Source: Synechococcus sp. WH 7803
GTDB lineage: Bacteria > Cyanobacteriota > Cyanobacteriia > PCC-6307 > Cyanobiaceae
DNA length: 64,000 bases
Reading direction: 5' to 3'
Assembly (NCBI GenBank): GCA_000063505.1
Contig: CT971583.1
Location: forward strand, 837,918 to 901,917
The notes beneath the pieces were generated by a model, which saw only the letters and a list, made by a program, of their open reading frames with translations, did not search any database and was not told where the DNA came from. Positions within the stretch are counted from its first letter, which is position 1. Every line of letters starts with the position of its first letter. Positions 12,794 through 25,230 of the stretch are shown in pieces. Both the position numbers and the translations under genes were made by a program.

Positions 12794-12826
12794 AAAAACC
12801 CCGCCATTGCTGACGGGGTGAATGTT
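12794..12826 (-). terminator. intrinsic terminator T, copy 1
   Basis: Hairpin CCCCG-CCATTGCTGA-CGGGG. On the minus strand it is followed by a run of five T, so it ends minus-strand transcripts from the 12928-13266 gene. The same hairpin with the same loop recurs at 14446, 16826, 19677, 22016 and 37513. Confidence 0.75.
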
Positions 12827-12827
12827 T

Positions 12828-12919
12828 TGTCGGGAGATCGATAGCGACAACCACGCCCCCTGCTTTCCCCTGTCGGGTCTTGTATAGCTTTCAGCCCTCA
12901 GACTTCAGGCTTCCCGACA
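12828..12919 (-). repeat. island element A, copy 1 (3'-flank repeat)
   Basis: About 92 nt bounded by TGTCGGGA and TTCCCGACA (inverted repeat), with conserved internal blocks GATCGATAGCGACAA, CCCCCTGCTTTCCCC, GTCGGGTCTTGTATAGCTTT and AGGCTTCCCGAC. It lies between the stop of the secreted gene at 12928 and terminator T, so it would form the 3' untranslated region. Other full copies: 14866-14959 and 19711-19802. Partial copies: 16855-16882 and 22050-22098. Confidence 0.7.
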
Positions 12920-12927
12920 CTTTGTTG

Positions 12928-13266
12928 TCAAAAGCGGAATGAAAACGAGTAGCCGGGTGCGCCATGGAGTTGATAATCACCCTGTTTGTCAATACTCCAG
13001 CTAAACCAACGCTTTTGGTAAGGAATATTCTTGTGAAGAACCTCGGCGGTATTGTCATCCCAGATGACAACGGTTCCCGAGTCAATATCAATAACTGTGT
13101 GGCCATTGGCGTTGACTCTTTTGCTCACCCTGCAATATTCACCTTGAACTGTGCGCGACGAGCTTGGATTCCATGCCCAGCATGTGCCAGCCTTGGCAGG
13201 CGTGGTCGAGATAGTGAGAGCCGCTAGGGATAGAGATGCAGCAATAGCAAGATTTTTGAGATTCAT
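12928..13266 (-). CDS. small secreted hypothetical protein (island)
   Basis: 112 residues, MNLKNLAIAASLSLAALT with signal cleavage at AKA-GT. The mature part has Cys in GTCWAWNPS and GEYCRVSKR, then a beta-rich tail ending APGYSFSFRF. Unknown family. First of a series of short secreted island proteins, each with Ala-rich Sec signals. Its 3' side carries element A and terminator T. Confidence 0.7.
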   Translation of the reverse strand: MNLKNLAIAASLSLAALTISTTPAKAGTCWAWNPSSSRTVQGEYCRVSKRVNANGHTVIDIDSGTVVIWDDNTAEVLHKNIPYQKRWFSWSIDKQGDYQLHGAPGYSFSFRF

Positions 13267-13333
13267 GATTGATTAGCGATAAGTAGATTTTTGCGGTTAA
13301 TGGTTGATTTGGCGATAAGTGATAAAGCTGGGA

Positions 13334-13624
13334 TCAATCAAATTGATAACAAGCAATGCCATACATATTTTCCTTGTAGTTGGCTTGTATATGAGTCGGG
13401 CATTCAACCCACATTCCATCGCGAGCGCCACCGTTTACCGAAGCCACCACATACTTCATCCCGTCACGGTAGAAATTTGTAGATTTCCTGACTGAATGGA
13501 TGCAGATGTGATTACCGCTTTCGTTTCTGTAACAGTGATGATATGAAGCATTGGCAGGAGAAGCTGCAGTAATTGACGCGCCGATAGCGACAGCAGCGGC
13601 AGCGATTGTGTTGAAGAGTTTCAT
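13334..13624 (-). CDS. small secreted hypothetical protein (island)
   Basis: 96 residues from ATG 13624 (MKLFNTIAAAAVAIGAS), signal peptide ending ANA-S. Four Cys in the mature part (HHCYRNES, NHICIHSV, WVECPTH, IACYQFD) suggest two disulfides. An in-frame ATG at 13651 (MTSTHHFQL) sits inside the 41-bp element C and directly follows AGGAGG, so translation could begin there. Function unknown. Confidence 0.7.
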   Translation of the reverse strand: MKLFNTIAAAAVAIGASITAASPANASYHHCYRNESGNHICIHSVRKSTNFYRDGMKYVVASVNGGARDGMWVECPTHIQANYKENMYGIACYQFD

Positions 13625-13640
13625 GAGTTGAAAGTGGTGT

Positions 13641-13681
13641 GTGGAGGTCATCCCTCCTGGACCTCTTCACCATCGCCGTTC
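13641..13681 (-). promoter_or_regulatory. element C, copy 1: conserved 41-bp leader with Shine-Dalgarno hairpin
   Basis: Identical over 41 bp to 15383-15423, and both copies end 15-16 nt before a minus-strand start codon. In mRNA sense it holds GAGGTC-(CAGGAGGGAT)-GACCTC, a 6-bp stem that presents AGGAGG in the loop, followed by an ATG in the element itself. A leader controlling translation or a shared promoter tail is the likely role (inference). Confidence 0.6.
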
Positions 13682-13761
13682 CACCCCTCCATCCACATCA
13701 CCCAAAAGTGCTGTCCTGAAGCCAATTTGCTGGTCATAATGGGGGAGACACAAAGCCTGGT

Positions 13762-14445
13762 ATGGAGTTTCCGCTTCGTTCCGCGCAGATCCGCTCAGCC
13801 TTTGACCAGGGCAAGCCTCTCTTGGCTGGTAAGTCGGCGGTGGCTTGTATGGGTGACCTCCTGACCCTTGCTTCCTTCAGTCTTGTTCCTGTCGTCAGCG
13901 AAACCTTGATAGGGGCCTACACCACTCAGGAAGAGGCAGCTGATGCTTGCCAGCAGAAAACCCCTGACCTCTTGTTCGTCACGGAAAACCTTGAGCAGGG
14001 CTACGGCCTCAGCCTTGCAAGACACGTTAAGGAGTTCAGCCCTAAGACAAGAACCTTGTTGTTCCTCCACCGAGAGACGCAGGCTGTTGTGCGAGAAGCC
14101 TTGGATGCCTTTGCAGAGGGCGTGATGTTCGTCAGCTCCTTGGGAAAAGGCATCGATGGTGATTTCATCAGATCCCTGTCAGCCATTGCCGAAGGCGGGA
14201 ACTACTACCCAAAGGACGTTCAGACGGCGGCGGGCTATGAGGACATTGAGATTTTGCCTGAACTATCTGATCGAGAGATGGAGGTACTGAAAGTGCTCTC
14301 CTGCGGGATGACCAACAAGGAGATTGCTGTCACTTTGTTTGTGAGTGCAGAGACAGTGAAAACTCACGTCAGTTCCATCATTGGAAAGATGGGCGTCAAA
14401 GACCGCACCCAGGCTGTGATTAAAGCGATTAAGGCTGGAATCTAA
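13762..14445 (+). CDS. LuxR-type transcription regulator with atypical receiver domain (island paralogue)
   Basis: 227 residues. N-terminal receiver-like domain (about 25-150) and C-terminal LuxR helix-turn-helix (about 165-225: LSDREMEVLKVLSCGMTNKE, then SAETVKTHVSSI). In the receiver the strand-3 segment is PDLLFVTENLEQGYG, with Thr/Glu where the phospho-accepting Asp normally sits, so it is probably not a conventional phosphorylated response regulator. A paralogue at 31084-31791 has Ser there. It is one of the few plus-strand genes of the island and is followed at once by terminator T. It could be the island's own regulator (inference). Confidence 0.82.
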   Translation: MEFPLRSAQIRSAFDQGKPLLAGKSAVACMGDLLTLASFSLVPVVSETLIGAYTTQEEAADACQQKTPDLLFVTENLEQGYGLSLARHVKEFSPKTRTLLFLHRETQAVVREALDAFAEGVMFVSSLGKGIDGDFIRSLSAIAEGGNYYPKDVQTAAGYEDIEILPELSDREMEVLKVLSCGMTNKEIAVTLFVSAETVKTHVSSIIGKMGVKDRTQAVIKAIKAGI

Positions 14446-14470
14446 AAACCCCGCCATTGCTGACGGGGAA
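14446..14470. terminator. intrinsic terminator T, copy 2 (bidirectional)
   Basis: Same CCCCG/CGGGG hairpin directly after the TAA of the LuxR gene and 25 bp from the stop of the convergent 14496-14840 gene. The A-run on its left gives a T-run for the minus strand. Confidence 0.7.
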
Positions 14471-14495
14471 TCGCGCCTGAATCCTTGCCTGATGG

Positions 14496-14840
14496 CTACC
14501 ATTCTGAGATCACAAAAACTGTTTTTGATTCCATAGACTCAAAGACCATCATCTCTTTGCCTTCGTAATAATCTTTTTTAACTATCCATCGTCCGCCCCT
14601 TGAGTCCCTAAGTGATCCCGCCCCAAGCCTTTGAAAGCTATCAGAGACTCCATCGGCCCATTGAACTTTAATTGAGCCATTGCGAGTATGACTTAACCTG
14701 CAATTTATAGACTTTACCGGTTGATTGGGACGCATAAATGCACAATCTGTCCAAGGCGTTGTTACTGCCTGTGCTACTCCTCCGATAACAGCAGAAGCTG
14801 CGACCAATCCAGAGATTGCGATTGAAGTAAAAAGTTTCAT
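14496..14840 (-). CDS. small secreted hypothetical protein (island)
   Basis: 114 residues, MKLFTSIAISGLVAASAV, with signal cleavage near AQA-V. Two Cys (TDCAFMR, INCRLSH), then a beta-rich domain with KVQWADGVSDSF and GGRWIVKKDYY. The signal peptide resembles that of the 13334 gene. Element A lies immediately 5' of it, as the 3' flank of the next gene upstream. Confidence 0.68.
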   Translation of the reverse strand: MKLFTSIAISGLVAASAVIGGVAQAVTTPWTDCAFMRPNQPVKSINCRLSHTRNGSIKVQWADGVSDSFQRLGAGSLRDSRGGRWIVKKDYYEGKEMMVFESMESKTVFVISEW

Positions 14841-14865
14841 TTGATTTGTTTAATGTGTGAGATTT

Positions 14866-14959
14866 TGTCGGGAGATCGATAGCGACAACAACACCCCCTG
14901 CTTTTACCGTAGTCGGGTCTTGTATCGCTTTCAGCCATCAGGCTTCAGGCTTCCCGACA
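14866..14959 (-). repeat. island element A, copy 2 (without terminator)
   Basis: TGTCGGGA...TCCCGACA element, closely matching 12828-12919 throughout, but here no terminator hairpin follows; the next gene on the minus strand begins 25 nt later. Transcripts of the 14972-15367 gene would run through it into the 14496-14840 gene. Confidence 0.7.
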
Positions 14960-14971
14960 AACTCTAAAACT

Positions 14972-15367
14972 CTAAAAACTTGAGAATTTAGCCATTAGAG
15001 CATCAGCCTCTTCTGGCATCGTAATTCCCAACCTACGGCGCTTTTCACTGGAATTAGATATGTGCAAAACAGCTGCAGCAGTGGGTGCTCCGATGCAAAG
15101 AGTTAAGCCATAATCCAAAAATGCAAGGGGTAGTCCAACAACACCAACAGCTGTCCCAACAAGTGTAGGGGTCCAATTCTGGGTTTTAGCACTGTAATAG
15201 ATGCAAGCAATTGGCCCGCCTATTGCATGAGCGATACCGCAAGGAAGCTGGCGAAGTGCTGCTTGTTTAAGGTCAGAAGTCGCAACCATGACATCGTCGT
15301 GATTGTGTTTTTTAATCGACTCGACTTCATGGTGAACTTGCTTCAGAGAAACTTGAGTGTTCGTCAT
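14972..15367 (-). CDS. membrane protein with paired hydrophobic segments (island)
   Basis: 131 residues from ATG 15367 (MTNTQVSLKQVHHEVES). A charged helical N-terminus is followed by CGIAHAIGGPIACIYY, then two hydrophobic segments around LVGTAVGVVGLPLAFLD and TLCIGAPTAAAVLHI, and a polar tail. Resembles small glycine-rich membrane proteins; function unknown. Reading from 15415 would pass through element C; the inner start overlaps the stop of a nine-codon leader (MTSTTSKFK) initiated in element C. Confidence 0.62.
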   Translation of the reverse strand: MTNTQVSLKQVHHEVESIKKHNHDDVMVATSDLKQAALRQLPCGIAHAIGGPIACIYYSAKTQNWTPTLVGTAVGVVGLPLAFLDYGLTLCIGAPTAAAVLHISNSSEKRRRLGITMPEEADALMAKFSSF

Positions 15368-15382
15368 TTGAATTTTGAAGTT

Positions 15383-15423
15383 GTGGAGGTCATCCCTCCT
15401 GGACCTCTTCACCATCGCCGTTC
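15383..15423 (-). promoter_or_regulatory. element C, copy 2
   Basis: 41/41 identical to 13641-13681. Here the ATG that follows AGGAGGG opens a short leader ORF (MTSTTSKFK) whose TGA overlaps the ATG of the downstream gene at 15367, an arrangement suited to translational coupling or attenuation. Confidence 0.6.
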
Positions 15424-15435
15424 TCGCTGAAAAGC

Positions 15436-15500
15436 AAATCCCCCAACGGAGCCATTTACTTTCCCGATTTCAGCCGTCTGCCTCCCCCATCTGGGTCACA
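15436..15500 (-). repeat. island element B, copy 1 (5'-flank repeat)
   Basis: ATCCCCCAACGGAG... core GATTTCAGCCGTCTGCCT ...CCCCCATCTGGGTCACA. Two imperfect dyads (CCCCCAACxGGGG-like and CCCCCATCTGGG) flank a conserved core. It lies between the starts of the minus gene 15367 and the plus gene 15621. Other copies: 18794, 19607, 20671, 21875 and 24004. Confidence 0.68.
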
Positions 15501-15620
15501 GCACTGTTCCCATCTGCCACGCCAGCAGGCGTTCACCTCCTAAGACGGCAGGACTTTTTCAACGCAAGCCTCGCCCACAACTGACTGGTTCAAAGTCAGT
15601 TGGCTGGCCACCATTAGGCG

Positions 15621-16223
15621 ATGAGGATCCCAGTCCTTTTCCTCTCAACAACGATTTTGTTGGCTGCTACTCCTGCTGCCTTCGCGCATGGTGGCGGGTT
15701 GGACTCCAGCGGCTGCCATAACAACAGAAAGACAGGTGATCGTCATTGCCATCGAGGCTCTGGTGCATCATCTAAACGCTCTATTGGACTTGTCTCTGGT
15801 CCAGTTGCCTTGCTCTCTGTCGGTGATGGAGACACCATCAGGGTTAAGGACGGCAAGGGCAATCGAGTCACCATCCGACTGGCTTGTATCGACGCTCCAG
15901 AAACCAGTCAGGGGAACAGTGGTCAATGGGCTACCAAGACCCTCAAGGGGCTGATCAAGGGAAAGTCCATCAGCCTCAAGCCTCAGACCAAGGACCGTTA
16001 CGGGAGAACTGTTGCGGAGGTCTACAGCGGGACTACCAACATCAACCTTCAGATGATCCGTCTGGGTGCGGCGTACCCCTACCGGAAGTACCTCGGTCAA
16101 TGTGATCGCGCTGCTTACCTATCTGCTGAAGCCGCAGCTAGTAAAAGGAGTATTGGTGTCTGGGGTCCGTATCGACCAAACCAGAAACCATGGGACTACC
16201 GTCGTTCACGCCGAAACCGATGA
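15621..16223 (+). CDS. secreted YHYH-SNase (thermonuclease-family) protein
   Basis: 200 residues. Signal peptide MRIPVLFLSTTILLAATPA ending FA-HGG; a His-rich YHYH-type segment 23-45 (HGGGLDSSGCHNNRK, HCHR); then a staphylococcal-nuclease fold 60-180 with the catalytic set Arg86 (TIRLACID), Asp91, Glu94 (DAPET) and Arg126/129 (KDRYGRT). Expected to be an extracytoplasmic Ca-dependent nuclease acting on DNA or RNA. Its stop overlaps the next start (ATGA), so it is coupled to a second small secreted protein. Confidence 0.85.
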   Translation: MRIPVLFLSTTILLAATPAAFAHGGGLDSSGCHNNRKTGDRHCHRGSGASSKRSIGLVSGPVALLSVGDGDTIRVKDGKGNRVTIRLACIDAPETSQGNSGQWATKTLKGLIKGKSISLKPQTKDRYGRTVAEVYSGTTNINLQMIRLGAAYPYRKYLGQCDRAAYLSAEAAASKRSIGVWGPYRPNQKPWDYRRSRRNR

Positions 16224-16444
16224 TCCGACTACTTCTTCCCCTCAGCCTGGGCACACTTCTATTAGCTCCTGCTTTCCCTGCGTCCGCCGCAGTGCTTGCC
16301 GAAGGTGCTCCCAAGAACGGTTACTACTGGCAGAAGACATCGTCTAAATCAGGGTCAATTCGATACCTCTGCAGGTCTACAAGTTCATCTAAGTTTCAAA
16401 AGCACAAAAAGTGTAAGGATGCTGGTGCATCGAAGCCCAACTGA
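16220..16444 (+). CDS. small secreted protein coupled to the nuclease
   Basis: 74 residues from ATG 16220, overlapping the nuclease stop by 4 bp. MIRLLLPLSLGTLLLAP with cleavage at ASA-A. The mature peptide is about 50 residues, basic and Ser-rich (YYWQKTSSKSGSIRYLCRS, KFQKHKKCKDAG), with two Cys. Could be a partner or inhibitor of the nuclease (inference from coupling only). Confidence 0.65.
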   Translation: MIRLLLPLSLGTLLLAPAFPASAAVLAEGAPKNGYYWQKTSSKSGSIRYLCRSTSSSKFQKHKKCKDAGASKPN

Positions 16445-16492
16445 TTATTTGTCGCCATGATTTAACCGAGCTTGCATTTGCCAAATCAATTT

Positions 16493-16792
16493 ATGAAACA
16501 ATTCATGAAAGCATTTTCAGTTGCAATAGCTGGTTCAATTACAGCACTAATGTTAAACACTGCGCCTGCCTCTGCACGATGCCCCACGGGGTTCACGGGC
16601 GAAGCAGGATTTAACTACTGCGTACCCACCAAAGCATCCGATAGAAAGATTTGGCTTGATTGTGCTGATGAACAAAGACGATTAGGGCTGACTGAAACAA
16701 GCCCCTGCATTTCCGAAAATAGACGCATCAAGCTGATCGACAATTATATCTATTACTGTAGGAAGTCAAAACTTCCACACTTAATGCGCTAA
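16493..16792 (+). CDS. small secreted hypothetical protein
   Basis: 99 residues (MKQFMKAFSVAIAG), or 95 from the second ATG at 16505. Signal peptide ends ASA-R; the mature part has five Cys (RCPTGF, NYCVPT, WLDCADE, SPCISEN, YYCRKS). The start RCPTGFTGEAGFNYC resembles short EGF-like or cystine-rich exported peptides. Third gene in the plus-strand set after the SNase. Confidence 0.62.
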   Translation: MKQFMKAFSVAIAGSITALMLNTAPASARCPTGFTGEAGFNYCVPTKASDRKIWLDCADEQRRLGLTETSPCISENRRIKLIDNYIYYCRKSKLPHLMR

Positions 16793-16821
16793 TAGGAACT
16801 GTTGCTTGAAAGAAAATAAAA

Positions 16822-16882
16822 GAAAACCCCGCCATTGCGACGGGGTGAATGTTTTGTCGGGAGATCGATAGCGACAACCACA
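16822..16882 (-). repeat. terminator T copy 3 plus truncated element A
   Basis: Terminator hairpin CCCCG/CGGGG (loop CCATTGCGA) joined to the first 28 nt of element A (TGTCGGGAGATCGATAGCGACAACCA), after which similarity stops 20 bp before the stop of the HNH gene. Serves as the 3' flank of the three-gene minus operon 16904-18745. Confidence 0.7.
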
Positions 16883-16903
16883 AAGCAGCCCAGCAGACGA
16901 TGC

Positions 16904-17935
16904 TTAATATCGGAGCTTGAAGTCCTCGTAATTCTTTTGAAGCCGATGAAGTCTGGCAAACAAATTGGCCTGCCGCTCTGCAGAGCGTGAATTGACGCTA
17001 TCAAGCAAGTCGCTTCGGACATTATGCAAATAGTCTGAGAAGTCCTTTGGCATACAAGGTCGACCTCCAATCCAGGAATGAAATTCCCTATGAAGGGTAG
17101 TGTCCAGAACCAGGATGTTGTCATGGAAATCATCGAGATCTGGTCGGGTATGCCTGTCAAAGAGATGGTGACCGTCAAGCTCTAGATATTGCCCTCTGGC
17201 ACGCTTGCTGCCAGTTACCTGGCACGTTTTATTGGCTGCTCGTTTAGCTGACTCAATTGCCTTGGAAATCCGAAGTTCAGAGCTTTGAAGTCGTTTAATT
17301 TCACGATCAAAGCAAACCTCAACAACGTCACCTACTGCGTCCATCCAAGCTTTCCGTGACTTAGTGATTTTAGAGTTATTTCGCATATCCACAGCGATGC
17401 TGGCAATCCCTTTTTGGCTCCAAGCCTTCCTGCCATTCTCGTCAACAATGAAATGCTTATCAATCTCAATTCCTTCTTGTCCTTCTAAAGAACCAGAACT
17501 GGCTAGTCGACGAATAGAATTATTGATTCCCCTTCCGTTGGTCTGAAGAATTCTGATCGTAGTTCGCTTGTTGACGAAGGCGAGGCCGTCCTTCATTGCC
17601 ACCATTCCACCATGATCGAGCAATTCTTGAGTGATTCGACGGGATACCAACATTTTTTTGCGCTTGTGCCGCCGCTTGGTAAGTAGCTCTAAGACCCCAT
17701 CAAGGATCCCAGGTATTTGAGATTCAAAATATCTTGCCAGAGCCTCAACACCTTCTTCTGTGAACCTGCGTTCTCTGATTTCGCCAGACTTTTGAACGAA
17801 TTCAAAGTGTTCGCCCTCTACTAGATCCCACTCATCATCGTCATAACGATCAAAGAAATCGACGGTGTTGTAGAGAGTGTCAATTCGCTTGCCAAGGATT
17901 TTGGCCGTTTCGCGGTCAGTAAGGAAGTCTCTCAT
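16904..17935 (-). CDS. HNH-type nuclease with N-terminal DNA-binding-like region
   Basis: 343 residues. N-terminal 1-75 (MRDFLTDRETAKILGKR...) looks like a MerR/antirepressor-type helix-turn-helix; the middle is basic (KRRHKRKKMLVSRR). The C-terminal part has an HNH-like motif: Cys238 (CQVTGSK), LELDGHHLFDRH with His256/257, Asn273 (FHDNILVL) and the terminal HREFH (282-286). Such ββα-metal nucleases cut DNA. Last gene of an operon, 15 bp after the J-domain gene. Defence or mobile-element function is inferred from island location and partners. Confidence 0.7.
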   Translation of the reverse strand: MRDFLTDRETAKILGKRIDTLYNTVDFFDRYDDDEWDLVEGEHFEFVQKSGEIRERRFTEEGVEALARYFESQIPGILDGVLELLTKRRHKRKKMLVSRRITQELLDHGGMVAMKDGLAFVNKRTTIRILQTNGRGINNSIRRLASSGSLEGQEGIEIDKHFIVDENGRKAWSQKGIASIAVDMRNNSKITKSRKAWMDAVGDVVEVCFDREIKRLQSSELRISKAIESAKRAANKTCQVTGSKRARGQYLELDGHHLFDRHTRPDLDDFHDNILVLDTTLHREFHSWIGGRPCMPKDFSDYLHNVRSDLLDSVNSRSAERQANLFARLHRLQKNYEDFKLRY

Positions 17936-17950
17936 CGCTATTAAATCCGA

Positions 17951-18508
17951 TTAGTTCATCAAAGCCAGAAGGGAATCGCGCATCTTTTGCAAGCGCTCAA
18001 AGACTCGTGCGTCACCACCAACATCTGGGTGATATATCTTGACAAGGTCTCGGAATACCCCTTTGACATCGTTTGGAGTCGCCGTTGCAGAATCAAGACC
18101 AAAGATGTGCCATGGCCTGAAATTCTCAAGTACGTCAATACCGTTGATACAGGTGTCGCCGCTTTGATTGCGCTCATCAACTGGTACAGCAATCCACTTT
18201 CGATATTGAATTCGCCAATCTTCGGTTGACTTAAGGTTGACTTTCTCTCCCGTGAATGCCATTTCAAAGGTGCGATTCTTCCTTAGCTCCGTTACTGTTT
18301 TGCATCCAAACTTGGCTAGAACTTCTTTCTTCATTGTTGCCATAGTTATTGTCTTGGGCTTTCTTGCAGTTGGCTCAGCGAAAGGGCCTCCATTGATTTC
18401 TTCTGCAAAGTTCAGAAGCATCTCAATAGTGATGTTGCCTGACGCCTGAAGTACACTAATCAGCTCAAGTACCTCAGTCTTCTTTAGCTTTTTTTTGCGA
18501 TTAGCCAT
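17951..18508 (-). CDS. protein with C-terminal J domain
   Basis: 185 residues. A basic, Lys-rich N-terminus (MANRKKKLKKTEVLELIS) and a middle with KPKTITMATMKKEVLAKFG, then a DnaJ-type J domain about 130-185: PWHIFGLDSATATPNDVK, VFRDLVKIYHPDVGGD, with the HPD motif at 160-162. J domains recruit and stimulate DnaK; with a client-specific N-terminus, this probably directs Hsp70 to the partner encoded next door. Position between a small membrane protein and an HNH protein is unusual. Confidence 0.75.
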   Translation of the reverse strand: MANRKKKLKKTEVLELISVLQASGNITIEMLLNFAEEINGGPFAEPTARKPKTITMATMKKEVLAKFGCKTVTELRKNRTFEMAFTGEKVNLKSTEDWRIQYRKWIAVPVDERNQSGDTCINGIDVLENFRPWHIFGLDSATATPNDVKGVFRDLVKIYHPDVGGDARVFERLQKMRDSLLALMN

Positions 18509-18793: not shown

Positions 18794-18857
18794 CACATCC
18801 CCCATTTGGGGGATAGATCCGCATGATTTCAGCCGTGTACTTCCCCTGACTGGGGTT
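18794..18857 (-). repeat. island element B, copy 2
   Basis: ATCCCCCATTTGGGGGAT (perfect dyad), core GATTTCAGCCGTGTAC, then TCCCCTGACTGGGG. 49 bp upstream of the membrane/J/HNH operon start. Spacing to the start codon is like that of the other copies. Confidence 0.7.
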
Positions 18858-19191: not shown

Positions 19192-19575
19192 TCATTCTTT
19201 TTGAGTCAGAGATGAGTACGAATAAGTGAAAGACAAATCTTTGCGATTCACTTCAACTTGACTTGATGAATAGAAGGAGTCTGCAAGCGAAGGCGGCTCT
19301 TGAGATATTTCAGACAATCTGTAGAATTCAGGTTCAATCGTGAGCTTATACGCTGAACCCTGAATTTGAGACACTCCCGTACTCGTATTGATCATCACTC
19401 TTCGAGTCCATAAGTCGTCTAGATCTTGCGGCATATTTGAGATGCGCCCAGCAGTGTTGATCACATGTGTATCCTCTAGGACCATGGTTTCTTTGCAGGT
19501 CAGGTGGATAGTTTTAGCGGCTGCTGACTGTACAGAAACAGCAACTACCGCAGAGGCAATCAAAAGTTGTTTCAT
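19192..19575 (-). CDS. small secreted hypothetical protein (island)
   Basis: 127 residues, MKQLLIASAVVAVSVQSAAA-K. The mature start TIHLTCKETMVLEDTH resembles that of the 36961-37407 protein (ILFLKCDETRVF), suggesting a family of small secreted beta proteins beginning with a single Cys and ETxV. The remainder is polar and beta-rich. Element B copy 3 lies 31 bp upstream. Confidence 0.65.
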   Translation of the reverse strand: MKQLLIASAVVAVSVQSAAAKTIHLTCKETMVLEDTHVINTAGRISNMPQDLDDLWTRRVMINTSTGVSQIQGSAYKLTIEPEFYRLSEISQEPPSLADSFYSSSQVEVNRKDLSFTYSYSSLTQKE

Positions 19576-19606: not shown

Positions 19607-19674
19607 CGCATCCCCCAACTGAGGGATTTTCCACCCCGATTTCAGCCGTCTGCTTCCCCCAACTGAGGGAGCAA
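19607..19674 (-). repeat. island element B, copy 3
   Basis: CATCCCCCAACTGAGGGATT, core GATTTCAGCCGTCTGC, then TTCCCCCAACTGAGGGAG: here both half-sites are the same sequence (CCCCCAACTGAGGGA), showing that B is a tandem site. It abuts terminator T/element A of the next cassette. Confidence 0.72.
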
Positions 19675-19675: not shown

Positions 19676-19802
19676 AAAAAACCCCGCCATTGCTGACGGG
19701 GTGAATGTTTTGTCGGGGGACCGATAGCGACACCTACGCCCCCTGCTTTCCCCTTGTCGGGTCTTGTATAGCTTTCAGTCGCTAGGCATCAGGCTTCCCG
19801 AC
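19676..19802 (-). repeat. terminator T copy 4 plus element A, copy 3
   Basis: Hairpin CCCCG-CCATTGCTGA-CGGGG followed by a full-length element A (TGTCGGGGGACCGATAGCGA ... GGCTTCCCGAC), differing from copy 1 at scattered positions. 3' flank of the 19810/19938 genes. Confidence 0.72.
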
Positions 19803-19809
19803 TACTTAA

Positions 19810-19953
19810 TCAGTTGCAGTAAGTCTGGTTGCCGAGCGTCTGGCACCAAGTAGAGCTGCCATCGCTGTGATTGATGTAAGTATTGTTTTCGTTCCTGGTG
19901 GATCTTGAAGATCGGCCAGGGCCCTCAGCTCTGGTGATCAGAACAAGCCCCAC
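19810..19953 (-). CDS. 47-residue ORF with C-terminal Cys-rich motif, probably a gene remnant
   Basis: A GTG at 19953, preceded by AGAGGAG, opens MGLVLITRAEGPGRSS..., ending in NTYINHSDGSSTWCQTLGNQ then TYCN. The N-terminus overlaps the end of the GIY-YIG gene by 16 bp. The tail with WCQTLGNQTYCN looks like the end of a small exported protein whose signal peptide has been lost. Either a coupled short gene or a remnant. Confidence 0.4.
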   Translation of the reverse strand: MGLVLITRAEGPGRSSRSTRNENNTYINHSDGSSTWCQTLGNQTYCN

Positions 19954-20624
19954 CTCCTCTTATTGCTGGACTGAAGCTTGCTGATCAACTCTTCTCTACT
20001 TCTCAACTCTTCTTCAAGCCTCTCTTGTTCTGCCCGTAGTGCAGCAACCTCGCCGTCAACAACAGAGTCATCTAAATCATTGTCATTAGGTAGATCCTCT
20101 TCCTCATCGTCATACGCATCAAGAGGTATCAAATCCTTGTGCTTCTCCTTGAACTGATCGATTTCCTGTTGGATCTCTGCGGCTCGAGATTGTATTTCAC
20201 TCATCCACTCTTCGTCTCCAGCTTCAACAGCAAGATCGAATGACGCTTCGAGCCTCTGAGCCTTCTTCCCAAGTTTTGAGAGCACAGTTTCAACCTCATA
20301 GGCCATTTGACTTTCAGGGTTATCAGAGATGAAGTCCCCCAAAGGAACTTCTGACTGCACAGAAAATGATTTCATCAGGTTGCAGCATTCAAGGATGTCC
20401 TGATTTTCAAGTCGAAAGTATTCTGTTTGAGGGATTCGCAGGTGCCTGAAACGAGCGTGCAGCGTTCGCTCAACATCCGCCGCTGTGAAATTCTCGTCAC
20501 CATCAAGATTTAGCCTCGCTTGAACATGATCTGGCTTTAATTCGCGCATCCTCCGTTCAAAATTTGCAGTAATGCCAATTTTGTGGAGGTCTCCATTGGT
20601 GATCAGATAAACGCACTCCTTCAT
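19938..20624 (-). CDS. GIY-YIG/T5orf172-like nuclease domain with coiled-coil tail
   Basis: 228 residues. N-terminal domain 1-85: CVYLITNGDLHKIGITANFE (GIY-YIG-like core with KIGIT), RRMRELKP, then VERTLHARFRHLRIPQTEYF (catalytic-type Glu and aromatic end), as in T5orf172/MUG113 proteins. Residues 110-228 are acidic and form a predicted coiled coil (EVAALRAEQERLEEELRSRE). Likely a DNA-acting protein of phage or island type. Element B copy 4 lies 47 bp upstream. Confidence 0.72.
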   Translation of the reverse strand: MKECVYLITNGDLHKIGITANFERRMRELKPDHVQARLNLDGDENFTAADVERTLHARFRHLRIPQTEYFRLENQDILECCNLMKSFSVQSEVPLGDFISDNPESQMAYEVETVLSKLGKKAQRLEASFDLAVEAGDEEWMSEIQSRAAEIQQEIDQFKEKHKDLIPLDAYDDEEEDLPNDNDLDDSVVDGEVAALRAEQERLEEELRSREELISKLQSSNKRRWGLF

Positions 20625-20670: not shown

Positions 20671-20738
20671 GTATCCCCCAACTGGGGGGATTTCCCATCC
20701 CAATTTCGGCCGTCTGTCTCACCCATCTGGGTCACAGG
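20671..20738 (-). repeat. island element B, copy 4
   Basis: GTATCCCCCAACTGGGGGGA, core AATTTCGGCCGTCTGTCT, CACCCATCTGGGTCACAGG. The stop codon of the 72-residue gene E1 lies inside its right edge. It is fused to repeat E as in the 24004 copy. Confidence 0.7.
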
Positions 20739-20950
20739 CTGACCCCCAGGTGCCAACCGACCAGCCTGTCTGCCTCCTCTGTCGTGAGGATTGGGTCCAG
20801 CCCATCACACATCAGCTCAATCACAGCAGGCTCTCCAAGCCGTTCGATGCCTAGAGTCAGCCAAGCCTTGAAGGCATTGGAATCGTTGTCACGCAGCGCC
20901 AGGAGCAGCTCCTGCAGCAGCGCCATGGTCATCTGCGTGTCGAGGGTCAT
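20732..20950 (-). CDS. 72-residue hypothetical protein, repeat E copy 1
   Basis: MTLDTQMTMALLQELLLALR then NDSNAFKAWLTLGIERLGEP and a tail with EEADRLVGWHLGVSL. Acidic, all-helical, no known domain. Differs from the copy at 24064-24282 by only a few residues. About 255 bp of DNA, including 40 bp beyond the start codon, is duplicated. Because both copies keep an intact frame, selection on the protein is likely. Confidence 0.68.
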   Translation of the reverse strand: MTLDTQMTMALLQELLLALRDNDSNAFKAWLTLGIERLGEPAVIELMCDGLDPILTTEEADRLVGWHLGVSL

Positions 20951-21144
20951 TGGTCAGGTGCAACTGCTGAAAGCATTCCCCGCTGACGTACCGCTTTCGA
21001 GGCAGCCGGTCACGGGACACGAAAGTAGACAAACCCGCCAAATCCTTGTCCACCTTGACCCCATTTCTGTCCTCCCCCAAGACCCCCCAACAGGACAAAC
21101 CCTTGATATGACTGGGAAAAGCACTGCCACGACTGGCCACTTTC

Positions 21145-21190
21145 CTGCCTTCTAAGCAGTCGGTCGATGGTTCGAATCCATCAGGGGGCG
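21145..21190 (+). tRNA. 3' fragment of tRNA-Arg(TCT): probable attachment-site remnant
   Basis: Contains an anticodon arm CTGC-CTTCTAA-GCAG (anticodon TCT), variable TCGGT, a perfect T arm GATGG-TTCGAAT-CCATC and a 3' acceptor strand AGGGGGC plus G. No D arm or 5' acceptor strand (expected GCCCCCT) is found upstream, so it is not a working tRNA gene. Such 3' halves mark the distal attachment site of elements that integrate into tRNA genes. Confidence 0.8.
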
Positions 21191-21286
21191 TATACAAAGG
21201 CGCGTCAGGCAGAGGGCTCTTGGTTGTGCCGAGAGCCTTCATTTCGCGTTGTTGATCTCCCGGCGGTTATTGAGCTCATTGCGCTG

Positions 21287-21487
21287 ATGCCAAAGCGCCG
21301 TCACCGGGGCAGACCGGAAGAAACTCAAGAGCAGCAGTGGAAGGATTACCGCCGCCGGTGTCGTGGGCCGGAATGGTGGGACAGATGTACAGAGGAGGAG
21401 TTACGGCAGATGCAGGAGCGTGGCCGTCAGCTGCGAGAGGGTGGATATGGATCAGTGACCTGGAGCGACCTGCTGGGTGAAAGGTGA
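21287..21487 (+). CDS. 66-residue charged hypothetical protein (full-length parent of repeat D)
   Basis: MPKRRHRGRPEETQEQQWKD, then RRRCRGPEWWDRCTEEELRQ and a tail ending VTWSDLLGER. Highly basic N-terminus, Trp-rich middle. Unknown. It begins about 100 bp after the tRNA fragment. Its last 130 bp plus 49 bp downstream are repeated at 18892-19069. Confidence 0.6.
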   Translation: MPKRRHRGRPEETQEQQWKDYRRRCRGPEWWDRCTEEELRQMQERGRQLREGGYGSVTWSDLLGER

Positions 21488-21538
21488 TGCCGCAGAAGCT
21501 CAAGACACGGGGAACCAACATCAGGATCTGGTGATTGG

Positions 21539-21829
21539 TCAGAAGGGGGTGCATAAGCCACTGGTATCGCAGTCGTATTGCTTGCCGTCTTCATCGACCA
21601 AAACCCCACCGCCATACAAGCCGCCCTTCGGTCCATACATGGGATCATCGTCGTAATACCTCCCGCTGGAATCCTGGTAAGAATTGCCGCCGTACTTGCC
21701 ACTACCCGAGTGGTAAAGAGGCTCCGCTCCAGCAGTCGAAGGCATCAAGGCATTCACCGCGAGAAAAGCGGTTGCACTCATAAGGACACCAGCAACGCCA
21801 GTAACAACAGTGCGCGAAAGACTTTTCAT
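21539..21829 (-). CDS. small secreted Gly/Tyr/Asp-rich protein (island)
   Basis: 96 residues, MKSLSRTVVTGVAGVLMSA with cleavage near AGA-E. The mature part is low-complexity (YHSGSGKYGGNSYQ, YYDDDPMYGPKGGLYGGG) and ends KQYDCDTSGLCTPF with two Cys. Resembles short extracellular glycine-rich proteins; role unknown. Stop lies 2 bp from the end of repeat D. Confidence 0.65.
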   Translation of the reverse strand: MKSLSRTVVTGVAGVLMSATAFLAVNALMPSTAGAEPLYHSGSGKYGGNSYQDSSGRYYDDDPMYGPKGGLYGGGVLVDEDGKQYDCDTSGLCTPF

Positions 21830-21874
21830 TAATTTGATTCATCTAATGACAGAATTGCCGAAATGGCACGACAG

Positions 21875-21940
21875 CACCTCCCCCATTCGGGGGATATTTC
21901 TGTCCCTTTCGGTGGGGACACTTCCCTTAGCTGGGGGTTG
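21875..21940 (-). repeat. island element B, copy 5 (diverged)
   Basis: CTCCCCCATTCGGGGGATAT, a diverged middle, then CTTCCCTTAGCTGGGGGTTG: the two half-sites and their spacing are kept, but the core is replaced by the dyad GTCCCTTTCGGTGGGGAC (21902-21919), which recurs with two changes at 21972-21989. 46 bp upstream of the 21539-21829 gene. Confidence 0.6.
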
Positions 21941-22015
21941 ACAAACTTCCCACAGGCAGGAACTTCAGGTTGTCCCAGTCGGTGGGGACAGTGGCTTACG
22001 GAATACCTCTTATGT

Positions 22016-22098
22016 AAAAACCCCGCCATTACGACGGGGTGAATGTTTTTTTCGGGAGATCGATAGCGGCAACAAGGCCCCTTTCTTTTACCTTCTGG
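22016..22098 (-). repeat. terminator T copy 5 plus diverged element A
   Basis: Hairpin CCCCG-CCATTA-CGACGGGG with flanking A- and T-runs, then TTCGGGAGATCGATAGCGGC and CCTTTCTTTTACC, recognisable as the left half of element A; the right inverted repeat is lost. 3' flank of the minus operon 22100-23980. Confidence 0.65.
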
Positions 22099-22099
22099 T

Positions 22100-22444
22100 C
22101 TAGTTTGTGAAATCTGTAAGTAAAAGATTCTTCAACATTACTACTTTCATGAATTGGACAAATGTGATGCCGGGTTGCAGCACTCCAGACCTGACTGCCG
22201 CAAGATATACATCAAGCCATTTGGACTGTTCTTGGTCAGATTTCTCAAGCCACCATCTATCATAATTATCAAGCTCAATATTGACCATCTTCCCCGACGG
22301 AGTTCTCCCTAGAAATTGACCATTTTCATCGATGATCAATTCAGTACCGATTGGGGTGTCGTCCTTCACGTGTTGAATCGGCGCTGCGGTGGACGGTGCA
22401 GCAAGGCAAAGAGCAAATGCGGCAAATGCAAATAACTGTTTCAT
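22100..22444 (-). CDS. small secreted hypothetical protein (island)
   Basis: 114 residues, MKQLFAFAAFALCLAAPSTA-A. The mature part is acidic with IGTELIIDENGQFLGRTPSG and aromatic RWWLEKSDQEQSKWLD; no Cys after the signal. Unknown function. Last of three secreted proteins in a minus operon (10 bp after the 22455 gene). Confidence 0.66.
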   Translation of the reverse strand: MKQLFAFAAFALCLAAPSTAAPIQHVKDDTPIGTELIIDENGQFLGRTPSGKMVNIELDNYDRWWLEKSDQEQSKWLDVYLAAVRSGVLQPGITFVQFMKVVMLKNLLLTDFTN

Positions 22445-22454
22445 CTGTCTGAAA

Positions 22455-23246
22455 TCATGGGGAAGTATTTGAATTAATACCTAAAAGTTCTTGCTTTTTA
22501 TAGGCACATAGTTTTTCCAGTGAGCCATATGTAATTCCTGTCATTTCTGGTGACGTTAGGATTCTTTTGTCGTAGCCATTCCTAAGGCGACTGATTATAG
22601 ATGCGAGCTGCTTACATTCATCGGCTGGATGAGCAAGGGAAGTGTTCGATTCCCCCAACTCTGAATAATAATGTCTGGCCGCAATATTAATTTTGGACAG
22701 GCCGGAGCAAATGCTAAGCCTAGACGTAGCGTCAAGTTGAGAATCTGCAGGCCCCCATGATTTACTGCCTGGCAGAAAAAAGGACGGACATCCTGCTCTT
22801 CCTGCGGCAATCTCTGTGCTTTTAATAACATTTCTCCAAGCCATTGGATTCCTTTTTGCTGTCTCAAGTGATTTGTCGTATGTGATGAGGTGTTTATACT
22901 TAGACAGGACCACATTGTATGAGACCGATGCCTTCCAATCGTTAGATCCTTTCGGGAATTCATCAGTATTGCTCTCTCTTGTCTCCAAAGCACGTACTGC
23001 CCATTTAAAAGCCTTCTCGTATTCACCAAGCTGGTAGTGATGCAAGCTAATCATTAGAGGATATTGCTCGTCTAATGGATGATTTTGATGGCAAATAACT
23101 ATTTTATCAATTGCAGCTGCCCATCGATTCGCATCATAGTCGCCATCCACGATGATAGCGTCGCATGTTTTATTTGTCCTCGCTTGCAGTGGCGAGTGCA
23201 AAAATGAACCAAGGATCAGAAATGTGGCTATTAATTGTTTTTTCAT
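22455..23246 (-). CDS. secreted TPR-like protein (island)
   Basis: 263 residues with signal MKKQLIATFLILGSFLHSPLQA. The segment DGDYDANRWAAAIDKIVICH, then SLHHYQLGEYEKAFKWAVRA, is tetratricopeptide-like; seven or so Cys outside suggest disulfides. Its start overlaps the stop of the upstream HExxH gene by 4 bp, so the two are coupled and may act together. Confidence 0.66.
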   Translation of the reverse strand: MKKQLIATFLILGSFLHSPLQARTNKTCDAIIVDGDYDANRWAAAIDKIVICHQNHPLDEQYPLMISLHHYQLGEYEKAFKWAVRALETRESNTDEFPKGSNDWKASVSYNVVLSKYKHLITYDKSLETAKRNPMAWRNVIKSTEIAAGRAGCPSFFLPGSKSWGPADSQLDATSRLSICSGLSKINIAARHYYSELGESNTSLAHPADECKQLASIISRLRNGYDKRILTSPEMTGITYGSLEKLCAYKKQELLGINSNTSP

Positions 23247-23980
23247 GATTTTTGACAGGCGTAATTTAGAAGAATTGCGACATCAAATGAATCTCCACTG
23301 AATTGTCGCGCCTCTATTTCAAGCTCTTGGTCTTCTGGCTCATATAGTTCTATAACCTCCCGAAATTCAGATGGCCATAACGTCTTCGAAAAGAAGGCCT
23401 TCCTTATTGGTGGAATTTTTTTAAGTGATCCTCCGACGCAATGCTGCGCAGCGTGCACGGCTTCATGAATCATTACTTCCAATCCCCACCCTGTTCCTGG
23501 ATGGCTTTGATTCTGCGTGCATATGACTATTGCTTTGTCCTTTGAAGAGTAAAAGCCTTGTAAGCCATCCTGTTTGCAAAGGATTGCAAGTTCCTTTGGT
23601 GCAGAATTTGGAAATTCTTTTTTGTCGATAAGTACGGGCACTCCTGCCTGGGCAAAGAGATCTGCGACAAAATTTTCTCTCGCGTAGCGAGATAACCCTT
23701 CGTCTAAAGCTTTGAAGTCAGCCACGCATTCATTTTCATGCACTCTGAGTTTTCTTACGCACTTAAGAAATCTTGCCTTGATCGGATCAAAATAACCGTT
23801 CAGGCATTTTGTCCAGTCAGGAGCTTTGAGGCATCGCATGTGTACGTCATCAGGGATGATGGCGTTTGCCGGTCCTGATGTAATTGAAGCAAGCAAAAGA
23901 ACTGCAGTCCAGGAGATGGCACTGCTTATTGGGTGGGATGATTTCCTCAATGGAGGTAACCTCACGGACACCATCATCAT
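23243..23980 (-). CDS. secreted HExxH metalloprotease-like protein (island)
   Basis: 245 residues with an N-terminal export segment (AVLLLASITSGPANA). The motif VMIHEAVHAAQHC is HExxH, followed about 50 residues later by EPEDQELEIEARQF, a plausible third-ligand Glu. Multiple Cys. A shorter relative at 63123-63473 has TLAHEMVHLAQDC and EEEAYQLE, so this is a family of secreted putative zinc peptidases. First gene after element B copy 6 and coupled to the TPR-like gene. Confidence 0.72.
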   Translation of the reverse strand: MMMVSVRLPPLRKSSHPISSAISWTAVLLLASITSGPANAIIPDDVHMRCLKAPDWTKCLNGYFDPIKARFLKCVRKLRVHENECVADFKALDEGLSRYARENFVADLFAQAGVPVLIDKKEFPNSAPKELAILCKQDGLQGFYSSKDKAIVICTQNQSHPGTGWGLEVMIHEAVHAAQHCVGGSLKKIPPIRKAFFSKTLWPSEFREVIELYEPEDQELEIEARQFSGDSFDVAILLNYACQKS

Positions 23981-24003
23981 TTTTCACCAACCTTTTAACT
24001 CTT

Positions 24004-24068
24004 ACATCCCCCAACTGAGCCATAAATTTTCCCAATTTCAGCCCTCTGCCTCCCCCATCTGGGTCAGA
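24004..24068 (-). repeat. island element B, copy 6
   Basis: ACATCCCCCAACTGAGCC, core AATTTCAGCCCTCTGCCT, CCCCCATCTGGGTCAGAGG. 23 bp upstream of the HExxH gene; its right edge contains the stop codon of gene E2, as in copy 4. Confidence 0.7.
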
Positions 24069-24282
24069 GGCTTACCCCTAGGTGCCAGCCGACAAGCCTG
24101 TCCGCTTCTTCTGTCGTGAGGATTGGGTCCAGCCCATCACACATCAGCTCTATCGCAGCAGGCTCTCCAAGCCGTTCGATGCCTAGAGACAGCCAAGCCT
24201 TGAAGGCATTGGAGTCGTTGTCACGAAGCGCTAGGAGCAACTCCTGCAGCAGCGCAATGGTCATCTGAGTGTCGAGGGTCAT
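24064..24282 (-). CDS. 72-residue hypothetical protein, repeat E copy 2
   Basis: Same protein as 20732-20950 with changes such as Ile for Met at residue 9 and Ser for Thr in KAWLSLGIERLGEP. The DNA match runs from element B through 24318 (about 315 bp with B), ending at CCCCGCTGA. Intact in both copies. Confidence 0.68.
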   Translation of the reverse strand: MTLDTQMTIALLQELLLALRDNDSNAFKAWLSLGIERLGEPAAIELMCDGLDPILTTEEADRLVGWHLGVSL

Positions 24283-24366
24283 TGGTCGGGTGCAACTGCT
24301 GAAAGCATTCCCCGCTGAAAAGGCTTCTGGTTCCTCCTCGCCAGACTGGAGGGAGACAGTCAACCC

Positions 24367-24678
24367 ATGGCCACCGCCAAGCCCAGTCGAACCCGCCGGC
24401 AACCATCAGCCAAGACTCCATCCAAGGCGCAACTGCGTCAGCAGCGGAAGCAGCAGAGCCTGGAGACCACGCAGAAGATGGCCGATGCGGCGTACTTGAA
24501 GACCTACCGCCACACCCAGATCGCCATCGCCCGTCAGGAAGCCAAGCAGCAGGCCCTGACCGACGCCGGCATCAAGCAGCAGCAACCACCGGTGGCACCG
24601 CAGCAGAAGCAGAAGCCACTGACCAAGGCACCGTCATCAGGTCGTAAGCCTCAGAACCGGAAACCACCCAGGCGGTGA
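24367..24678 (+). CDS. basic Gln/Lys-rich hypothetical protein
   Basis: 103 residues, MATAKPSRTRRQPSAKTPSK through a Gln-rich helix (QLRQQRKQQSLETTQKMAD) to a Pro/Arg tail (SGRKPQNRKPPRR). Strongly basic, intrinsically disordered ends; likely nucleic-acid associated. No family. Lies at the right end of the island. Confidence 0.55.
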   Translation: MATAKPSRTRRQPSAKTPSKAQLRQQRKQQSLETTQKMADAAYLKTYRHTQIAIARQEAKQQALTDAGIKQQQPPVAPQQKQKPLTKAPSSGRKPQNRKPPRR

Positions 24679-24685
24679 TCTGTCG

Positions 24686-24730
24686 TGGACATCCGTGGAC
24701 ATAAGCGCCCTATGTCCATCTCTATGTCCA
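24686..24730. repeat. four-copy TGGACAT / ATGTCCA cluster
   Basis: Two direct TGGACAT heptamers (24686, 24696) and two inverse ATGTCCA heptamers (24712, 24724) within 45 bp form a symmetrical array right after the basic-protein gene. The layout resembles operator or recombinase arm/core sites; no ORF covers it. Confidence 0.6.
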
Positions 24731-24746
24731 TTCGCGCCAAGACACT

Positions 24747-24773
24747 AAAAAAGGCGACCGCTGAGACCGCCTG
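24747..24773. terminator. probable terminator hairpin
   Basis: AAAAAAGGCG-ACCGCTGAGAC-CGCCTGTGTTT: a 5-bp AGGCG/CGCCT stem with an A-run on one side and T-rich sequence on the other. Would serve either strand. Confidence 0.4.
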
Positions 24774-24937
24774 TGTTTGCAATAGTTGAGGGGGCTTTCC
24801 ACCCCCATTGAGTCACTTGGGTGATAAGGCTGACTTCACCCCATCTCCCCTAAGGGTCAGGCAGCAACAGGGGCTGCTTGACGGGAGAAACGAACGATGT
24901 TGTTCGCAGTTACGGGTTTGCTCTCACCGAGCAGGCT

Positions 24938-25081
24938 TCAGTCACCCTCCTCATGCCCCCGGCTCACCATCAGGCCCCGGTAGTTGTGGCGCAGGTGGAG
25001 ATAAAGCGTTTCTAGCTCGCTCCGCTCGAGAGCCCCTGGATCGGAGGTGAAGCTGCCTGTGGGTGGATAAAGGATCGGCAT
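24938..25081 (-). CDS. 47-residue hypothetical protein
   Basis: MPILYPPTGSFTSDPGALER, then SELETLYLHLRHNYRGLMVS and a GHEEGD end. Preceded by AGGAGA 6 nt before the ATG and starting 12 nt after the stop of a 30-residue ORF, which supports a tiny two-gene operon. Unknown function. Confidence 0.5.
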   Translation of the reverse strand: MPILYPPTGSFTSDPGALERSELETLYLHLRHNYRGLMVSRGHEEGD

Positions 25082-25093
25082 GGTGTGTCTCCT

Positions 25094-25186
25094 TCAGTTG
25101 CCGATGTTGAGCTGGAAGGTGTCGAGGATCAGCAGCGGGTCAAACAGAGGAAGCATCGGAATCGGTGGATGCGTGGGTTCCTCCAT
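25094..25186 (-). CDS. 30-residue ORF upstream of the 47-residue gene
   Basis: MEEPTHPPIPMLPLFDPLLI then LDTFQLNIGN. Very short, Pro-rich. Support comes from the tight spacing and the Shine-Dalgarno sequence that links it to the next ORF. Could be a leader peptide. Confidence 0.35.
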   Translation of the reverse strand: MEEPTHPPIPMLPLFDPLLILDTFQLNIGN

Positions 25187-25210
25187 AGCGTTGGCCGAAA
25201 GGCCTTTTGG

Positions 25211-25230
25211 AACCTCCCCCAATCGGGGGA
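25211..25230. promoter_or_regulatory. B-type half-site
   Basis: AACCTCCCCCAATCGGGGGA: a single dyad CCCCCAATCGGGGG like the left half of element B, about 25 bp upstream of the tiny-ORF pair. Another single copy, TCCCTCAACTGAGGGA, lies at 30820-30835. Confidence 0.45.

Follow-up and report, generated by a model that had tools for sequence, protein, structure and literature searches.

Variable gene cassettes and a conserved 3′ structured RNA in a genomic island of Synechococcus sp. WH 7803

Introduction

The C4 antisense RNA of phages P1 and P7 (RF01695) shares a transcript with the gene whose start region it fits. C4 RNA of P1 is described as a regulator of the antirepressor (PMC8201110). For sRNA-Xcc1 (RF02221), a 2025 paper locates a Xanthomonas RNA ahead of symE in the integron cassette that is most widespread, and suggests a divergent regulation (PMC12444791); another counts seven homologues in Xylella, five of them in one island (PMC12189769). 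Exported proteins are described, in a further paper, as less shared among picocyanobacterial strains than cytosolic ones (PMC4949707). Here we describe element A, a structured RNA of about 97 nucleotides (nt) that occurs in a genomic island of Synechococcus sp. WH 7803. The window, meaning the whole 64,000-nt stretch analyzed, covers positions 837918-901917 of the single-contig, 2,366,980-base genome (G000), and coordinates below refer to the window unless a genome or locus is named. In the order that we propose, a complete cassette of the island would comprise element B, leader C and its short tag, at least one cargo gene, A, and a terminator, T; many cargo genes encode small exported proteins. 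Features lie on the minus strand unless stated otherwise.

A conserved structured RNA behind cargo genes

Iterated profile and covariance searches found three full and two partial copies of A in the island. The full copies are at 12828..12919 (copy 1; 113.3 bits), 8 nt past the stop codon of a gene for a protein of 112 amino acids (aa), at 14866..14959 (copy 2; 99.1 bits), and at 19711..19802 (copy 3; 98.9 bits). A 3′ part remains at 16855..16881, behind an operon for J-domain-like and 343-aa proteins, and a 3′ half at 22052..22104, behind the operon running from 23980 to 22100. The ends of the aligned copies read TGTCGGGA/TCCCGACA; their other features are a variable hairpin, the AUACAAnACCC-GNRA-GGGnAAA core, and P4, which is the last hairpin. 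In an alignment of 30 copies made by MAFFT only, we counted 17 double-changed cells against 3.7 expected. With 106 model-aligned copies there were 144 against 33 expected, a value reached by 0/500 shuffles, in an alignment that was fitted to the structure and hence leans toward it. A helix control did not discriminate, as 66% of shuffles passed it too. The GNRA tetraloop is exchanged for UUCG in two copies, and this swap together with the covariation indicates that A acts as RNA rather than as a DNA site. We conclude that A is a conserved structured RNA.

Element A is present in 27/31 same-genus genomes, including this one, with at most 13 copies per genome, and in 37/251 genomes of the family (E ≤ 1e-4, stricter filters). 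A-type copies also occur on contigs labelled as Planctomycetota and Gammaproteobacteria metagenome-assembled genomes (L202, L212), which are probably misbinned cyanobacterial contigs. Within the window but distant from the island, a remnant of the A 3′ end with T lies at 37514-37562 (G000 875431-875479).

We determined the placement of A without a gene caller, by counting same-strand open reading frames (ORFs) of at least 75 aa that end 0-30 nt upstream. After 3/106 model hits were dropped (one partial, two weakest), such an ORF preceded A in 61/100 copies across the genus, compared to 0-12 of 97-102 at 16 shifted positions and 6/101 on the flipped strand. In other genera the count was 26/44, taken without a shifted control and after 3/47 model hits were dropped as repeat hits of overlapping stretches. 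A close ORF accompanied 73/103 A copies; 27 of these 73 ORFs appear to bear a signal peptide by a crude rule, often MKLFxxIAAAAVIG-like. Other ORFs before A have type I secreted-like ends or double-glycine-like leaders, both labels assigned by eye.

Different cargo between similar flanks

The gene in the left flank of the island, 11761-12642, is found in 6/31 genomes including this one and, by coordinates, does not adjoin their A clusters, while 26732-28060 occurs in this genome only among the 31 same-genus genomes. Neither can serve as an island marker, so the island site as such is not comparable across strains, and we used instead a LuxR/GerE-type regulator gene on the opposite (plus) strand, 13762..14445, that marks a homologous site in genomes G006, G009, and G025. 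Over all six pairs of these four genomes, the shared flank blocks are 77-97% identical, and most cargo DNA has no match. Between the window and G025, matching blocks comprise B and the leader (92.9%), terminator-LuxR-leader C (94.6%), and A with T (96.7%), while the cargo stretches between them do not match. In the first slot, the match between the window and G006 opens at the first base of A in both, with 89.7% identity over 97 nt. A given slot thus holds different cargo from strain to strain, while the flanks around it are closely similar.

A similar pattern was seen among 21 cassettes with MKLF-like signal peptides, in which 182/210 pairs show no detectable mature-protein homology. Using thresholds of our choosing, 37 of these 182 pairs (15 cassettes) have leaders at least 70%, signal-peptide DNA at least 65%, and A at least 80% identical; in one example the leader is 100% and A 97% identical. 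The converse also occurs, as the 112-aa protein (12928..13266) has a G006 counterpart with a 95% identical mature part, a different signal peptide, and different upstream genes.

Complementarity between the P4 loop and a leader tag

Leader C, a third shared piece that is absent from an earlier note on this sequence, is a 42-nt stretch with a short upstream reading frame overlapping a GGAGG/CCUCC hairpin. It occurs at 13640..13681 and, in identical form, at 15382..15423, and it terminates in a GGAGGnnnnCCUCC hairpin. The frame overlaps the hairpin and encodes either MVNxSEG* (at other loci) or MVKRSRRDDLH, an extension, and it may couple translation. The bases directly behind the hairpin form the tag, which fits the P4 loop of the A in its own cassette. 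Tag ACCAC (13634..13638) complements the loop GUGGU of A copy 1, and tag ACAAC (15380..15384) complements the loop GUUGU of copy 2. Altered pairs occur elsewhere, including CUACUCA/UGAGUAG and ACAUUCAUC/GAUGAAUGU.

Within the genus, own partners fit better than re-paired ones, with z of 3.8 (42 cassettes, 0/5000), 4.3 (50, 0/5000), and 4.3 (59, 1/5000), in windows refined after a first test; an earlier re-pairing test of 48 genus pairs gave 2/2000. The signal is confined to tag nt 1-8, and flanking, parallel, and identity controls range from -1.8 to 1.3. These tests omit cassettes lacking a recognizable leader, loop, or start. In the last re-pairing test (n=59 in the genus, n=26 in other genera), 46/106 and 18/47 were unusable, and duplicates and one hit excluded by name were also left out. 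From these sequence comparisons it is likely, if not proven, that the P4 loop pairs with the tag of its own leader. So near the start region, such pairing would most simply reduce translation.

Relationship to sRNA-Xcc1

A recurrent but weak Rfam match of A is sRNA-Xcc1, with 25.9 bits for copy 1 of the window. Trp_leader, Yfr1, and terminator-bearing small RNAs also match weakly at or near A; of these matches we give weight to RF02221, which is recurrent and has the core in common with A. That core (22 nt, 19 fixed bases) was found in 98 stretches of the genome collection and 94 viral stretches, 80 of each set being listed, and by our own arithmetic with equal base use about 2 occurrences are expected in the genome set. 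The RF02221 gathering score was reached by 17/20 tested core loci, the rest being one cut-off contig and two cyanobacterial loci. Against nine non-cyanobacterial loci picked by their core, the A model gave full-length matches of 26-34 bits; the best local match of core with stem scored 25.8 bits, and the core by itself about 16. This supports, modestly, a homology that extends past the core. The core and the layout P1{P2{P3}P4} are common to A and RF02221 when compared by eye, and in Rfam's own alignments of A the core is fixed and P1 is not. Three weak A-model matches also lie within about 0.5 kb in Halodesulfovibrio (L255 7357-7818), recalling the clustered Xylella copies.

Behind non-cyanobacterial cores with enough sequence, an ORF preceded by a Shine-Dalgarno-like site starts 95-135 nt after the first base of the core in 144/157 cases; eight shifted controls gave 2-43 of 133-161. 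In proteobacteria and phages, P4 and the bases following it fit this start region, with a mean duplex energy of -16.3 compared to -11.0 for mismatched partners and 0/1000 re-pairings reaching it. The test used 72 distinct leaders, with each P4 entered once, and did not include cores of cyanobacterial type or those that lacked a suitable start codon. Judged by their translations, the genes that RF02221 leaders precede are what we take to be Rha/BRO/KilA-like and SymE-like genes. In the part of the sRNA-Xcc1 literature searched, which did not include the 2011 paper on it, we found no mention of a fit between P4 and the start region.

Architecture of the island

Cargo in the island is diverse. 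The 112-aa secreted-type protein gene (12928..13266), followed by A copy 1, shares its cassette with a first gene for a 96-aa secreted-type protein (13334..13624). A 131-aa protein gene (14972..15367) lies ahead of A copy 2, and a gene for a 114-aa secreted-type protein (14496..14840) begins 25 nt after it. The J-domain-like 185-aa and 343-aa proteins are encoded at 16904..18508; the DnaJ match is below cut-off, and the 343-aa protein has no Pfam hit. A gene for a 127-aa secreted-type protein (19192..19575) follows the B copy at 19611, with no A before the next B. The GIY-YIG-type (T5orf172/MUG113) protein gene at 19938..20624 was assigned by a profile match, and between its stop codon and A copy 3 lies a 47-aa ORF (19810..19953), which is perhaps what remains of the end of a previous secreted cargo. 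The operon at 22100..23980 encodes 245-, 263-, and 114-aa proteins and ends at the A 3′ half; the first two were scanned, with no Pfam hit.

Element B (57 nt) has full copies at 15439..15495, 18798..18854, 19611..19667 (directly behind the T of the preceding cassette), 20674..20731 (beginning at the stop codon of a 72-aa ORF, S72), and 24007..24063 (behind the second S72 copy). Each carries two CAGTTGGGGGA-type motifs about 44 bases apart, and from its position only, B is perhaps a promoter or operator. We surveyed B in 42 fetched loci plus this genome and found 35 copies, of which 17/35 have an ATG(G/C)TG leader within 90 nt, 7/35 lie behind a terminator-like run, and 8/35 lie behind an S72 end. 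Two copies that we inspected outside the island are at L012 and L013 (G000 1937431 and 999192). One of these stands ahead of leader C and a secreted-type start. The other follows an S72-like end and is succeeded by a small ORF that lacks leader C; no A core pattern occurs further along either 3-kb locus. From the 17/35 leader count and these two contexts, B appears to be tied to cargo less strictly than A. The S72 copies themselves (20732..20950, between A/T and B, and 24064..24282) have no Pfam match, and members of the family recur at this position, between A/T and B, in a number of genomes.

As an ordinary terminator, T consists of a hairpin with a T-run, found at 12798..12819 (behind A copy 1), 14449..14468, 16826..16846, 19681..19702, and 22020..22040. 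Terminator-like sites in the island number 13 against 13.4 expected from shuffles, with the five T copies ranking highest, and a promoter scan of the island found 12 against 11.3 expected from shuffles. The earlier note had six gene units starting shortly after B, of which five have full B copies (15439, 18798, 19611, 20674, and 24007) and the sixth, at 21875, has only a short CCCCCATTCGGGGG palindrome. It also had five units ending in A and/or T; the island has three full and two partial A copies and five T, and behind A copy 2 (14866) no T follows directly, the nearest being one gene beyond. The idea of standard flanks around each cargo is confirmed in part. Several units depart from it, namely 19192-19575, the GIY-YIG unit, and the units ending at 16855 and 22052, which hold only part of A.

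In loci L058, L059, and L048, many leader peptides (MSEEQLKAFLEAVKAD...), presumably of the Nif11-like kind, adjoin A/B cassettes. A Glutamine-II riboswitch (L027 308-367) lies about 1.2 kb away from an A copy.

Genomic setting and recombinases

GC content is 0.43-0.56 across 13-24 kb, compared to 0.60-0.64 in the neighboring 10-13 kb and 0.59-0.65 in 24-32 kb. The island lies immediately on the 3′ side of the transfer-messenger RNA (tmRNA) gene ssrA (24791..25018, minus strand), which was found by Rfam (153.6 bits) and not by ARAGORN run on the window. The tmRNA gene is a usual integration hot spot. Inside the island, on the plus strand at 21145..21487, is a copy of the 3′ end and downstream flank of tRNA-Arg(TCT), with about 300 bases of flank and 93.6% identity to the intact locus elsewhere in the genome (G000 1752692-1753035). 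The intact locus, at 1.7527 Mb, likewise has T, C, B, and an A remnant. In 6/42 scanned loci, from six genomes, the distance between tRNA-Arg(TCT) and A (intact or as a remnant) is 0.4-7.1 kb. Because of the tmRNA adjacency and the tRNA-Arg(TCT) fragment, the island looks like an integration hot spot holding relics of tRNA-targeted elements. A tRNA- or tmRNA-targeted element at the island may have decayed.

No integron integrase gene (intI, TIGR02249) was found in this genome and no tyrosine recombinase in the window; the sole PF00589 (tyrosine recombinase) match of the genome is at G000 643217-643633, about 207 kb from the island. Complete integron integrases of 453-466 bits, over cut-off in 3/31 genus genomes, are at G013:C1:262021, G017:C1:374659, and G027:C1:1465112, and in these genomes the A model has two, no, and no matches, respectively. 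Reading of the aligned A copies, with no attC program used, showed no attC core at their ends; we take the core consensus to be RYYYAAC...GTTRRRY. Identification of A as an attC or integron site was rejected on these three grounds. We also rejected a mobile miniature inverted-repeat transposable element, for A has inverted ends, yet its copies keep a fixed distance behind stop codons. As for a cyanophage vehicle, a pattern scan of viral contigs, which differing sequences would escape, gave four A hits that we took as chance because their ORFs are unlike cyanobacterial cassettes. No Rfam match to the C4 family was found at E ≤ 1 in 10000-28000.

Discussion

On balance, though without strong conviction, we lean towards reading the island as a set of gene cassettes that are exchanged through homologous recombination, each bringing along an antisense-type 3′ RNA of its own. 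Transcription of the cargo would extend into A, making A the 3′ end of the transcript, from which an RNA of about 100 nt may be cleaved. Its P4 loop would then pair with the tag just after its own leader hairpin and limit translation. The model for this action is the C4 RNA of P1; the related sRNA-Xcc1/C4-type RNAs appear to do likewise from the 5′ side. Cassettes would move via homologous recombination between shared flanks rather than by an integrase, since these flanks offer the identity for it and no special enzyme would be required. A bolder version, in which these are self-labelled exchangeable genes whose phage- or integron-type antisense RNA has moved to the cassette 3′ end, is tentative, and we would sooner doubt it than adopt it.

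The earlier note had set shared regulation that rides with each gene beside a mechanism that adds cargo. The former gains support from the structure of A, its placement at stop codons, and the complementarity of leader and loop. For the latter, cargo swapping between matching sites, which the note had named as support, was seen at one site (LuxR, four genomes), but nothing points to a dedicated mechanism, and homologous recombination is enough. The note was right to see the island as unlike an integron, given the missing intI, the distant PF00589 match, and A arms without the attC core. Nor does A lie in unrelated positions or orientations, a pattern that the note had set against its idea, as the shifted and flipped controls show.

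Several results weigh against the cassette reading. No ORF of at least 75 aa closely precedes 39/100 A copies. Scores of A against RF02221 are 25-32 bits with a gathering cut-off of 53, and 14/20 A loci have no listed RF02221 match, the other 6/20 matching at E ≤ 5 with 25.4-32 bits. At the LuxR site, the second slot of the window and G006 holds a common last gene (91.7% over 424 nt including A and T), and the sequence upstream of the first cargo in G006 is without a match. A first complementarity test with broader windows (36 cassettes, three windows) failed, with 285, 823, and 658 of 1000, and since the windows were refined afterwards, the genus P values do not come from a single preset test. 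When one entry per loop and tag is kept, the genus result becomes 67/5000. In other genera many tags resemble one another, as do many loops, and re-pairing there gave 668/5000 (n=30, z 1.1), 2527/5000 (n=15, z -0.04), and 461/5000 (n=26, z 1.3), and with n=6 the parallel control was equally high. Tags with their letters shuffled gave poorer fits, at 0/1000 for the genus and 7/1000 for the other genera, which speaks for the pairing, but this control preserves base composition only and does not retain repeat patterns of AC/GT. Most complementary runs span 5-6 nt and ACAAC/GUUGU dominates, so the pairing is not cassette-specific within a genome.

A rival reading is that A is only a conserved stabilizer or terminator module of the 3′ untranslated region (UTR), within a regulon of shared promoter, leader, signal peptide, and 3′ end, with the complementarity a by-product of ancestry or composition. 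The terminator that often follows A would agree with this, as would the dominance of one loop/tag pair and the non-significant re-pairing in other genera. It explains less well why non-standard pairs change together, as in CTACTCA/TGAGTAG, ACATTCATC/GATGAATGT, and ACACCTA/TAGGTGT, with CCGCTTT/AAAGCGG in another genus, or why, in the genus, the parallel and identity controls give no signal and, in both sets, the letter shuffle is positive. We regard a plain 3′ UTR module as unlikely, while giving it appreciable weight. A reading without exchange, in which a rapidly evolving family of secreted proteins retains signal peptide and UTRs and the mature part diverges in situ, is improbable. Signal-peptide DNA and leaders that are alike beside mature parts without homology are what such divergence would leave, but the slots hold differing kinds and sizes of cargo (656-aa, 161-aa, 131-aa, 90-aa secreted-type, and GIY-YIG), and the 95% identical mature parts with different signal peptides and upstream genes run the opposite way. 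Least probable of all is that A is a DNA recombination site, attC-like or for another tyrosine recombinase, in an integrase-less cassette array: its place right behind stop codons, its inverted ends, the several cassettes in a row, and the full integrases of three relatives would suit this, but A is scarce or missing in those relatives, no attC core is visible by eye, the only PF00589 match of the genome is distant, and the G-U pairs, tetraloop swap, and loop/leader complementarity are RNA-specific signals.

If the bolder version is correct, a gene placed between a standard leader, with its tag, and an RNA carrying the anti-tag would arrive already silenced or tuned. Costly secreted cargo would then be tolerable on arrival, and strains could swap exported proteins without an integrase. 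On the cassette reading, the cassette would be a concrete unit for swapping exported-protein genes, with testable control travelling along. It would also connect a cyanobacterium that is abundant in the ocean with an RNA family discussed, in the literature consulted, chiefly for Xanthomonas and Xylella. For the RF02221 family it offers a mechanism, namely a loop fitting the ribosome-binding site of a neighboring gene. A phage- or integron-type antisense RNA at the 3′ end of exchangeable cyanobacterial cassettes was not found in the literature searched, which was largely without subscription papers. Transcriptome work on WH 7803 reportedly exists, and its transcripts may include A without a name. 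Relatives of the individual parts are known, and the arrangement is what appears new.

Among known systems, the island recalls the tRNA/tmRNA-targeted islands of picocyanobacteria, including tycheposons, in lying 3′ of a tmRNA gene with a tRNA-Arg(TCT) fragment inside. It differs in that the window has no tyrosine recombinase and the cassette flanks are not att sites. Like integron cassettes, the island has constant sequence around variable cargo and a 3′ element just past the stop codon. Unlike them, it has neither an integrase nor a visible attC core, its conservation is at the RNA level, and its cassettes have their own terminator and perhaps their own promoter. Like C4 RNA, A would be an antisense RNA carried on one transcript with a gene and complementary to the start region of that gene. 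Unlike C4 RNA, it is located at the 3′ end and has a different fold. sRNA-Xcc1 has a near-identical core, AUACAAnACCCGnAAGGGnAAA, and likewise a P1 around P2/P3 and P4. According to two papers, RF02221 occurs in integron cassettes and genomic islands (PMC12444791, PMC12189769), and we found it here in viral contigs as well. A has an additional hairpin between P1 and P2, and it lies 3′ of its gene, whereas RF02221 lies about 100-130 nt 5′ of the start codon.

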